A program made the translations under genes and the position numbers. DNA of 35,127 nucleotides from Chitinivibrionales bacterium (GTDB lineage Bacteria; Fibrobacterota; Chitinivibrionia; Chitinivibrionales; WJKA01), in assembly GCA_014728215.1 (NCBI GenBank), contig WJLZ01000071.1, positions 1 to 35,127 of the forward strand, given 5' to 3'. Numbering within the stretch: position 1 is the stretch's first letter; each line of letters begins with the position of its first letter. Positions 5,676-13,454 of the stretch are shown piece by piece. The notes under the pieces were generated by a model. It worked only from the letters and a program-made list of their open reading frames with translations, made no database searches and was not told the DNA's origin.

Positions 5676-6821
5676 ATGCAAAAATTTGCCTCTTTTTTTG
5701 TGCTTATTCCGGTTTTCGCTGTTATTCAGACGCTCTATGCAGCCATAGGTCTTCCGGCGGTAATCGACAACAATATGGTTCTTCAGCAGGGCGAAGGTGG
5801 TCCGGGATATTCGACAAAACAGATGTTTCCGATCATGGGCGCGATTGTTTACGGATGGCAAATGCATTTTGAGCAGGACGATCTCTGGTTTGTATACAAC
5901 CAGAAACCCAACGGCGGCGGCCCGTCATTTCATGTCCCGACCGGCAATGAATGGCCACATTCATTCGGTAAAGTTGTCAGTCAAACCTTGCCAACCAGCA
6001 TCGACAGCTCTATTGATTCGGTCATATCGGGTTACTGGTTTTATTCGGGCGACCAGACGCACGACTACACCATGATCGAGAAATTTCCCCGGACCCTCAT
6101 GGCAAGTTCTGCCGATTTGAGCGAAGGCTCTCACCCCAGGAACAAAAAGGGCAATGCCATGCGTGCTGCCCGGGGCGCGCTGGGCGCTGTGTATGGGAAA
6201 ACCGATCTTTACACCGATTATACCGGGCCACGGTACGACGGCTACTCCATTGAGGGCTCATCGATCCGAATCTATTTCAAGCATGCCAAAAGCGGACTGG
6301 CCGCAGCACAGATACCAACGCTGCAGGGGTTCATAATTCGTGGGCAGGACAGTATCTGGCAATGGGCCGATGCACAGATTGAAAATGACACACAGGTTGT
6401 GGTCTCGCACAGTGATGTAGCCGACCCAATCGAAGCGCGTTATGCTTATTCTCGAAATATCGCCTACTGCAACCTTTTTAACAACGACAGCATCCCCGCC
6501 GCTACTTTCCGCACCGGACAAGAACAGCAATATTATGTGCCCAGACAGGAAAGCCTGCCGGTTGCGGCTCGATCGATTCGACATGTTACCGAACAGCCGG
6601 GAATCCGTGTCGACAAAAAGCACATCAGCTTTGCCGGTATCCCGGCAGGTGAATCCCTGAAAATCGTGACCTTATCCGGCAAAGTTGTCTATGAATCGAA
6701 AATTCACAATTCACAACCACCAATTGACATGAACAACTTGTCGCTTCCTTCGGGATGTTACTGTATCACACTCTCTTCGAAGGCATATTCTCTGCACCCT
6801 TTTACCGTCATTCACAACTGA
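5676..6821 (+). CDS. Sialate O-acetylesterase relative lacking the catalytic Ser block, with C-terminal sorting tail
   Basis: Translation starts at ATG 5676, 7 nt after AAAGGA; TATAAT at 5632-5637 is a possible -10. The protein has a signal peptide and the N-terminal hallmark of sialate O-acetylesterases, GLPAVIDNNMVLQQG. At that point the normal family continues into a beta domain and the SGNH Ser block (GQSNM). Here it jumps directly to YSTKQMFPIMGAIVYGWQM, which matches the much later Y-x-x-LFP-x-(L/M)I-x-x-W block. After that come SADLSEGSHPRNKKGNAMR (the His block, HP-NK) and the C-terminal domain (YDGYSIEGSSIRIYFKHA ... GFIIRGQDSIWQWADA). The Ser nucleophile is therefore absent. The last about 60 residues form a sorting-type tail ending LPSGCYCITLSSKAYSL. 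It is open throughout but probably inactive as an esterase. Confidence 0.75.
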   Translation: MQKFASFFVLIPVFAVIQTLYAAIGLPAVIDNNMVLQQGEGGPGYSTKQMFPIMGAIVYGWQMHFEQDDLWFVYNQKPNGGGPSFHVPTGNEWPHSFGKVVSQTLPTSIDSSIDSVISGYWFYSGDQTHDYTMIEKFPRTLMASSADLSEGSHPRNKKGNAMRAARGALGAVYGKTDLYTDYTGPRYDGYSIEGSSIRIYFKHAKSGLAAAQIPTLQGFIIRGQDSIWQWADAQIENDTQVVVSHSDVADPIEARYAYSRNIAYCNLFNNDSIPAATFRTGQEQQYYVPRQESLPVAARSIRHVTEQPGIRVDKKHISFAGIPAGESLKIVTLSGKVVYESKIHNSQPPIDMNNLSLPSGCYCITLSSKAYSLHPFTVIHN

Positions 6822-8124: not shown

Positions 8125-8321
8125 GCATTATCGCTTTCACATTTATAGCCGTGCCTGAATACTCCCAGTAGAATTAAAATAGAACGAAAGTACGAATAAT
8201 TCAAACTGTTGCAGTCTTTCCCTGAAAATGATTGGCAACAAGTTGAAAAAGCGGATTAATGCGCAATAAACCTCCCCAAAAAGCGTAAATTTACTGAAAA
8301 ACCGTGTGTAAGGAGGATATA

Positions 8322-9062
8322 ATGAAATCGTTGATTTTCTTTCCTTTTCTCTTTTCCTTTGTTTTATGCTATGATACGGGAGATTCCATGAATTCTTATC
8401 TGACATCGGAACATTCGAATACCTCACTGCCGGCGATCGATGTCGCAATCCCGGAAAATCTTCAAACAGCGACGTTCGCCCTGGGGTGATTCTGGGGTCC
8501 CGACTCCCGGTTCGGGAGTATCAACGGTGTTTATCGGACACGAGTCGGCTATGCCGGAGGGTTGAAAGAGAATCCCACATACCGCTCGATCGGCGATCAT
8601 ACCGAGTCAATCCAGATCGATTTTGATTCTTCCGTGATATCTTTCGGAGAGCTGATCCGGATATTCTGGGAAGAACATAACCCTGCGGCCTATACGGCCT
8701 CGCAGCAATATAAAGCGATCGCTTTTTATCATGATGCCCTGCAAAAAGAGATCATAGAGACGACAGCAGACAGTATTGCCGCGGTGCGGGGAAAGGTTGA
8801 AACTGAAATAAAGCCGTTCACCCATTTCTATCTTGCCGAAGCATACCATCAAAAGCACACGCTTCGCTCGCATTCCTCATTTATGAAACAGTTCGAGCGT
8901 ATGTACCCCGACTCCCTGGGCTTTATCAATTCAACTGCCGCGGCAAAGGTAAACGGCTATCTCGGGAGACACGCCGGTATCGAAGAGATCGAGCGCACCG
9001 TTGACAATTTAGGATTAGATGCGGAATCGCAGCAGAAACTGCTAACCTACGCAGCACGATAA
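8322..9062 (+). CDS. msrA: Peptide methionine sulfoxide reductase A, selenocysteine-containing (Sec56)
   Basis: MsrA reduces the S-epimer of methionine sulfoxide. ATG 8322 has AGGAGG 5 nt upstream. The frame runs to TAA at 9060-9062 with one internal TGA at 8487-8489, giving 246 residues. The TGA falls exactly at the catalytic position of the family motif GCFWG: the sequence reads ATFALG-U-FWGPDSRFGSING. Both sides are clearly MsrA: RTRVGYAGG, NPTYRSIGDHTESIQIDF and QQYKAIAFYHDALQKEI. A hairpin with bacterial SECIS geometry follows the TGA. The N-terminus is a signal sequence (SLIFFPFLFSFVLC), so the enzyme is exported. The only Cys (Cys16) is in the signal, so there is no resolving Cys in the mature protein. 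The C-terminal extension (after about residue 190) is helical. Ordinary gene callers would report only the part after 8562. Confidence 0.88.
8503..8519 (+). promoter_or_regulatory. Bacterial SECIS-like hairpin in msrA
   Basis: ACTCCC (8503-8508) pairs with GGGAGT (8514-8519). The loop GGTTC can close further by one G-C pair to GTT. The loop begins 19 nt after the TGA and has G at its first position, as required of bacterial SECIS elements bound by SelB. It lies within the coding sequence, as is normal in bacteria. Confidence 0.78.
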
Positions 9063-11117: not shown

Positions 11118-13454
11118 TTACCAGATCATCAGACATTTTTTATGACCCGGCTGATCATTGTATGCGCCATCACCGGCTTGTATGAAGTACATGCCTGAAG
11201 GAACCGGTGAATTACGGTTGTCTCTCAAATCCCATGCTCCTGATTTACCGGAAACAGGTCGATTTAATTTCCGGACCTGTTTTCCACATGCATCCAGGAT
11301 TATAATCTCGATTTCATCGTTAACCCGTTCTGAAAAGTGTATCGTGAGTTTTCCATTGCGGAAATGAAACGAAAAAGCCGGTGATGGATTAGCCCTGTTG
11401 GCGCCCTGGTACGGAGTTTGGGACACAACCGGACTACAGTTATCGTTCGGGCACCATTTATAGAAAAGGTTTTTGCTGCGCCAATCATCTTCAATAGCAA
11501 TCAAGTACTCTCCATTAGACAATTTGCTTACGGTGATGGGTTCCGTAATGTCCAACCAACCAATGGTACCCATTTCGGCAGTGGGTTCCATATAGCCCAC
11601 GTCGGTTCCATCGGTTTTATATACCATGAGATGACCTCGGCTGTAGGAAATATTCCCTTCATTCCCGCAAGGTGCCAGAAAAACATATCCATCCAGTACT
11701 TCCATCCCCTGTATATTTCCATCGCCTGCGCGGGGAGCATCATCCAACGGAGGAACAATTTCCCAGTCCGGCGTGCTAAATGTTCCACTCCAGTTTTCAA
11801 ACCCGCTAAAAATTCTGCCTGCTCTCTTGAAGTGCCATCCTGTTAATTTGGGATAGGTGCTGTTGAATCCACTTAACACCATGAGGTTATTTTGTTCCGG
11901 GTAAAACTTGATTCTCCTTAATTCATTGAAATGAGAAGGCATACCATATTCAACCCGACTCGTGAGGTTATATTCCGGTACCCCATTGGCATCTATTCTC
12001 TGCAAAGGGTACTTGAAGATGCCATCTGTCTGACTTGCCTGCCAGATATCGCCGTTGCTATCTACATAAAATCCACGAGTGGTACCCGTGCTTTGCGATG
12101 TTTTTTCCCCGGTATCGATATGGCCGTCACCATCGCTATCATACCATATTTCACTTTCTGTAACATATCCGGCGGGTACAGCGATATACCCATCATACCG
12201 GAATATGTCTATTTCAGTTCCATTCATTACACCCACGAACATAAACAGTTGATTGGAAAGCATACGTAACCATGTGGCCCCGGGGTGTCCGCCACGTGGA
12301 TCGTCGGGGTATGTAAATTCATCGATGGTACTTGCTATATATGACCAGTCTCCTGTGGAAAAATCAAATTCCATAATTTCTTCCGAACCATACCAGACAT
12401 TTTCATTCCTGGGATCGGGGGATACAGCCTCAATCCATATCAGACATTTCAAATCCCACAACAGGTTCCCTGAAGAATTATATTTTTGAAACAGGGAACT
12501 GCCTTCATGCCCGGGCCGATTCGCTATATACATGTTGCCGGTACTGTCGAATCCTATGCCGTGCGGGTTATCGAGTTTTTTAGCGGCATATTCCCCCCGG
12601 GTTCCGGAATATATTCCACCGGTATTGCCGAACGTGCCGTCATAGGCAGGGGAAGTGGTGATGTCTTTATAAATTTTCACATTATAATCGGCACCAACAT
12701 CAGTTACATATAATTTAGTGCCATATATGGCTATGTCTGTTGGGACTATACCTGACGCCAGGCTGATTTCGTCCACTTTGCTTTTACTTGACACATCGTA
12801 CCGGAGCACGTTGTTCGTTGAAGGTTGCAGTACCCATAACGTGCCTTCGCCGTCAAAATACAGATCTTCGGGGCTGGTTACGGAAATGTTTTCGGCTGAT
12901 TTGCCATGTAAGCTCAGGTCATACACTTTGATCGTGTTAAGGGACTTTACAGAAGCATATACCCTGGTGGAATTTACAGCCAATCCATATACACGATCAC
13001 CACAATCAACATGCACGTTTAAGTTTGTATTGTTGGGGTCGGACCTGTCACGCCTGTCAACACCCTGGTTCCCTGTGCGATGATTGTTGCCGGCAAAATA
13101 AATATAATCACTGTTCGCGGTAACGGCATTGCCACCGCCACGGTTTCCTACCCAACAGCGAGATGTCATAGTGCCATCCGAGTTAATAATGCTCACGTTA
13201 GAACCACTTTCTTCCCATCCAACATTTGTGAAAGCCGTACCATCTGATGCCACGAATAAATCAGCTACATTGTGCGGTACGTTAATATGATCAGTACTGG
13301 GATAATCGTTTCCAATGTACAAGCACTCATGCGTCAGTTGTTGAGCTGTAGCGATACTCATCAGGATATTCATAATGCCAATAATAGATGTAGCTGTCAC
13401 AGACAATTTACGAGTTAATTTCATTTTTCTTTTCATAGTGAAAATTATTTTCAT
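11118..13454 (-). CDS. Large secreted beta-propeller (NHL-like) protein with C-terminal sorting domain
   Basis: The 778-residue protein has a signal peptide within its first 40 residues (cut near ATAQQ); starts at 13454, 13436 or 13424 are all possible and none has a strong ribosome site. Residues about 50-350 hold repeated propeller blades such as VYGLAVNSTRVYASVKSLNT, SPEDLYFDGEGTLWVLQPST and PHGIGFDSTGNMYIANRPGH, which are NHL/SMP-30-like. A D-S-D-G-D-G-H-I-D calcium-type loop lies in the middle (about residue 445). The last 90 residues form a FlgD-like/type IX-type tail with IHFSERVNDEIEIIILDACG, PVPSGMYFIQAG and a positively charged end. Its role is unknown, perhaps binding carbohydrate at the cell surface. 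It is divergent from the beta-helix lipoprotein gene at 13887. Confidence 0.75.
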   Translation of the reverse strand: MKIIFTMKRKMKLTRKLSVTATSIIGIMNILMSIATAQQLTHECLYIGNDYPSTDHINVPHNVADLFVASDGTAFTNVGWEESGSNVSIINSDGTMTSRCWVGNRGGGNAVTANSDYIYFAGNNHRTGNQGVDRRDRSDPNNTNLNVHVDCGDRVYGLAVNSTRVYASVKSLNTIKVYDLSLHGKSAENISVTSPEDLYFDGEGTLWVLQPSTNNVLRYDVSSKSKVDEISLASGIVPTDIAIYGTKLYVTDVGADYNVKIYKDITTSPAYDGTFGNTGGIYSGTRGEYAAKKLDNPHGIGFDSTGNMYIANRPGHEGSSLFQKYNSSGNLLWDLKCLIWIEAVSPDPRNENVWYGSEEIMEFDFSTGDWSYIASTIDEFTYPDDPRGGHPGATWLRMLSNQLFMFVGVMNGTEIDIFRYDGYIAVPAGYVTESEIWYDSDGDGHIDTGEKTSQSTGTTRGFYVDSNGDIWQASQTDGIFKYPLQRIDANGVPEYNLTSRVEYGMPSHFNELRRIKFYPEQNNLMVLSGFNSTYPKLTGWHFKRAGRIFSGFENWSGTFSTPDWEIVPPLDDAPRAGDGNIQGMEVLDGYVFLAPCGNEGNISYSRGHLMVYKTDGTDVGYMEPTAEMGTIGWLDITEPITVSKLSNGEYLIAIEDDWRSKNLFYKWCPNDNCSPVVSQTPYQGANRANPSPAFSFHFRNGKLTIHFSERVNDEIEIIILDACGKQVRKLNRPVSGKSGAWDLRDNRNSPVPSGMYFIQAGDGAYNDQPGHKKCLMIW

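Follow-up and report, generated by a model that had tools for sequence, protein, structure and literature searches.

A predicted selenocysteine MsrA of the Clostridium oremlandii type, with a signal-like N-terminal segment and a conserved internal ATG, in a Chitinivibrionales bacterium

The closest described system is the MsrA of Clostridium (Alkaliphilus) oremlandii (4LWJ and 4U66; PMC4333827, PMC4479559), a 209-residue protein without a signal segment in which selenocysteine (Sec) occupies position 16 of a GUFWG active site, no other residue of the enzyme is Cys, and the catalytic domain is followed by a C-terminal helical domain that is needed for activity (PMC4333827). This Cys-free enzyme works 20 times as fast with Sec as with Cys, its reaction can pass through a dimer, and it accepts glutaredoxin but not thioredoxin as reductant (PMC4479559). 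Another bacterial Sec-MsrA, that of Syntrophobacter fumaroxidans, is listed by name in a published table (PMC1794560). Cys-type MsrAs of the same subfamily, from Halobacteria, Bipolaricaulota, Dehalococcoidia and Halanaerobium, share the core ATFALGCFWGPD with our gene; most have the extra C-terminal domain and some have signal segments, but they carry a Cys codon in place of TGA and mostly lack the codons specific to SECIS-bearing forms.

Here we analyse a stretch of 35,127 nucleotides from a Chitinivibrionales bacterium (contig WJLZ01000071.1, positions 1 to 35,127; hereafter the window), which contains an msrA frame with the following features:

8310..8316, + strand: SD of the first start, AAGGAGG, read from the sequence
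8322..9062, + strand: msrA frame interrupted by a single TGA; 246 aa counting Sec, ending in TAA at 9060-9062, PF01625 match
8322..8387, + strand: N-terminal hydrophobic signal-like segment MKSLIFFPFLFSFVLCYDTGDS; hydropathy peak 2.64, holding the only Cys in a lipobox-like, non-canonical FVLC
8378..8382, + strand: possible internal SD, GGGAG, 5 nt before ATG 8388
8388..8390, + strand: second in-frame ATG (Met23), 33 codons ahead of that for Sec, at a position kept in relatives; possible start of a 224-aa cytosolic form
8454..8867, + strand: MsrA catalytic domain, residues 45-182 (structure alignment, profile, model)
8487..8489, + strand: TGA, predicted selenocysteine, residue 56 (alignment with Cys homologues, codons of relatives)
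8503..8519, + strand: predicted bacterial SECIS element, stem ACUCCC/GGGAGU with apical GGUUC at 8509-8513, 19 nt after UGA
8868..9059, + strand: helical C-terminal domain as in C. oremlandii MsrA, residues 183-246 (structure alignment, model)

Taking together the computed codon position, SECIS fit, Sec machinery, family and fold, we are confident that the product of this gene is a selenoprotein, an MsrA of the same type as that of Clostridium oremlandii. An earlier note on this DNA had reported a single TGA in place of the catalytic Cys in GCFWG within an otherwise intact frame, and translation with homologue alignment returned the same picture: the only internal stop of the frame falls at residue 56, in the context ATFALG-U-FWGPD, and opposite it every one of the subfamily's 46 Cys loci has TGT or TGC. 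Whole-genome protein searches in which stops were read through found TGA at this same codon in 50 further homologues; a GTDB scan had returned 80 loci that were all Cys forms, probably because one of its patterns required TFALGCFW. The product matches the PF01625 profile at 127.7 bits (cut-off 23.7), with a GCFW-type active site present, and TIGR00401 at 110.7 bits (cut-off 108.1). MsrA residues 44-134 (8451-8723) also resemble NCBIfam NF041383, a VPGUxxT thioredoxin-like selenoprotein family, at E 3e-8, far under that family's cut-off; the NF041383 profile may itself contain an MsrA-like stretch.

The nearest solved chains are those of the C. oremlandii enzyme (E about 5e-53, the alignment covering CoMsrA residues 5-203). 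A predicted model of the window protein (mean pLDDT 89.9), with helices at 179-245, has 4LWJ as its best structure match (TM 0.89, normalised by 4LWJ length; 43% identity across the whole enzyme), and on this modelling the protein is a Sec-MsrA of the C. oremlandii type, without a resolving Cys and with the C-terminal helical domain. The absence of Cys, and so of a resolving residue, from the mature protein had been pointed out before; the sole Cys codon is that of residue 16 (8367-8369), inside the N-terminal hydrophobic segment, with none downstream, an arrangement known in C. oremlandii MsrA too (PMC4479559).

We infer that ribosomes would start at ATG 8322 and that, at UGA 8487-8489, SelB and Sec-tRNA(Sec) would bind the hairpin at 8503-8519 and insert selenocysteine at the catalytic position. 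The predicted enzyme would then reduce methionine-S-sulfoxide, with Sec attacking the sulfoxide and methionine leaving; because the protein has no resolving Cys, the resulting selenenic acid would have to be reduced either by a thiol from outside or by way of a dimer. The external thiol partner postulated in the earlier note agrees with the missing resolving residue, but glutaredoxin cannot be assumed to fill that role: whereas the C. oremlandii enzyme is recycled by glutaredoxin, a Pfam search of the window's own genome (5.0 Mb, 96% complete) found no glutaredoxin gene above cut-off (best 19.2 bits, cut-off 22.9). A search among the msrA neighbours in the window likewise found no redox partner.

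Unlike the C. oremlandii enzyme, the window protein begins with a hydrophobic segment, MKSLIFFPFLFSFVLC, preceded by an SD (AAGGAGG) stronger than that of ATG 8388, and export of this copy is likely on these sequence features, though its lipobox is non-canonical. The signal peptide proposed earlier is thus upheld as a strongly hydrophobic N-terminal segment and weakened at its cleavage site, where the canonical lipobox [LVI][ASTVI][GAS]C is absent from the window protein and FVLC stands instead. The accompanying view that an exported Sec-MsrA would be unusual is not supported, as a hydropathy criterion finds a signal-like N-terminal segment in 32 of the 50 Sec homologues; several of these relatives have lipoboxes (LITGC in L155 and LISGC in L163, both canonical, and LASC in L143) or twin-arginine motifs (L179 and L183). 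If exported, a selenoenzyme that lacks a resolving Cys would need a reductant outside the cytoplasm. It could instead be that ATG 8388 is the only true start, the enzyme purely cytosolic and the 22 upstream codons untranslated or inert: there is no clear signal peptidase I site after the non-canonical FVLC, and Met23 aligns with the start of the single-start Sec-MsrAs of Firmicutes. We consider this unlikely, given the stronger SD at ATG 8322, the strong hydrophobicity of the segment and the many Sec homologues with convincing lipoprotein or twin-arginine signals at the same place.

Export from the first start may be accompanied by use of the second. Collapsing near-duplicates left 26 signal-bearing Sec forms, and in 20 of them an in-frame ATG preceded by an SD-like sequence lies between signal and enzyme; 5.0 +/- 1.9 would be expected from codon shuffling of the linkers and 13.6 +/- 1.8 from synonymous shuffling that holds Met, and the figure for other exported ORFs of the loci is 15 of 60. 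In these comparisons kinship is only partly corrected and the control starts were picked mechanically. The internal ATG lies 32-34 codons ahead of the Sec codon in 14 of the 20, and exactly 33 in 10 of the 26; Met at this position stands out in an otherwise variable linker, and the single-start Firmicutes Sec-MsrAs begin near it. From these sequence patterns we tentatively propose, at slightly under even chances, that one Sec-MsrA gene may yield two enzymes: translation from the first start would give an exported one, and translation from an internal start about 33 codons before Sec would give a cytosolic one. If true, two starts would supply one costly selenoenzyme to two compartments. The window Sec-MsrA belongs to an already known kind; for the second start, a search covering few subscription papers found no description, which is weak evidence that none exists.

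The note had also seen a hairpin with a G-containing loop 19 nt past the TGA, and this is recovered as ACUCCC-GGUUC-GGGAGU, 8503-8519, its loop following a 19-nt spacer. The published model of bacterial SECIS elements describes a stem of 4-16 bp, a loop of 3-9 nt with G in the first two positions, a distance of 16-37 nt from UGA and an MFE no higher than -7.5 kcal/mol (PMC13188914); the window hairpin, with a stem of 6-7 bp, a GGUUC loop, 19-nt spacing and -9.8 kcal/mol, lies within all of these bounds. Equally good scores arise in 1.6% of synonymous-codon versions of the stretch (p=0.016), and -9 kcal/mol under the published constraints is reached by 1.4% of all TGA triplets in the window and the sel locus. 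The local fold is not significantly more stable than plain shuffles (z about -0.1 to -0.3), and an Rfam scan of 8400-8700 gave no family above its gathering score. Because the shuffle test is not significant, the single-sequence fold counts as weak evidence, and the deciding evidence comes from comparing relatives.

Among those relatives the codons that form the hairpin differ in frequency between Sec and Cys forms. The loop codon, +7, is CGG or CAG in all 51 Sec forms, the window included, versus 9 of 43 Cys forms, and codon +9 is GGG in 49 of 51 versus 8 of 43. Once near-duplicates are collapsed and the comparison is made at equal amino acids, the third base of +7 is G in 42/42 Sec versus 10/19 Cys forms (Fisher p 5e-6), and +9 is GGG in 41/42 versus 5/19 (Fisher p 7e-9), both tests ignoring the kinship of the sequences. 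Stem position four covaries among Sec forms, being G-C in 19 and U-A in 15, and the apical GGUUC of the msrA hairpin recurs in the hairpin of this genome's selD. Two Cys forms (L051 and L056) keep a SECIS-like hairpin downstream of the Cys codon, with a 12-pair stem in L051; this pattern suggests that these hairpins are remnants of a Sec ancestor, left by Sec-to-Cys reversion.

The genome also has the machinery that such an element would require. The earlier note had advised searching it for selA, selB, selD and tRNA-Sec, and had held that a lack of selB and tRNA-Sec would speak against selenocysteine; all four genes, these two included, are present. tRNA-Sec scores 61.1 bits (cut-off 47) and selB 349 bits (cut-off 242), the two lying close by on the same contig with selA between them, named from its sequence and position rather than by profile search. 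selD scores 367 bits and has one in-frame TGA; this Sec-containing gene (contig C187) lies next to two ORFs, one of 78 aa and one resembling a cysteine desulfurase. Two more MsrA genes, on contigs C159 and C115, have ordinary Cys, making the Sec form the third copy in the genome.

These results bear on whether the TGA might mark a pseudogene or a sequencing error, a TGC or TGT codon having turned into TGA by one change so that the gene is dead or was misread. The single step from either Cys codon would make such an event easy, and the 168 genomes searched in the phylum offer no same-species copy or close relative for comparison; we nonetheless judge it very improbable, since the TGA falls exactly at the catalytic residue, nothing else in the frame is disrupted, the strong SD has been retained, the genome has the Sec machinery and the codons specific to SECIS agree with those of the 50 other TGA homologues. 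Reassignment of TGA, globally or locally, to an amino acid other than Sec, such as Trp, would also leave the frame open but is barely credible and was rejected, as TGA remains the ordinary stop of several identified genes of this genome (selA, selB, EamA and permease genes), TGG is its Trp codon, and Cys homologues always have Cys, never Trp, at the TGA position. Sec at the catalytic position, the central proposal of the earlier note, is thus favoured by the codon alignment, the Sec genes, the SECIS fit and the TGA homologues alike.

The Sec form is common, not rare, in this subfamily, and often carries an export signal. TGA forms account for 24 of 25 matches in the phylum of a Syntrophobacterales genome, 15 of 19 in the Halanaerobium phylum and 3 of 4 in the Dehalococcoidia phylum. 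The 168 genomes searched in the window's own phylum yielded no second member of this MsrA subfamily, and the gene adds a Sec-MsrA to that phylum. The family tree requires a minimum of 10 switches between Sec and Cys; the window lies on a long branch without firm placement, and for that reason we name no donor lineage for its gene. In three of the relatives (L156, L168 and L170), upstream in-frame sequence resembles an MsrB domain fused to the Sec-MsrA. Another Sec-MsrA homologue (L189) has a second TGA two codons past Sec, at the active-site Trp, which may reflect a broken copy, a sequencing error or recoding.

Promoter and terminator scans gave results at chance level. Elsewhere in the window, two stretches, at 11118-13454 on the - strand and 5676-6821 on the + strand, weakly match the C-terminal sorting tails of type IX secretion.
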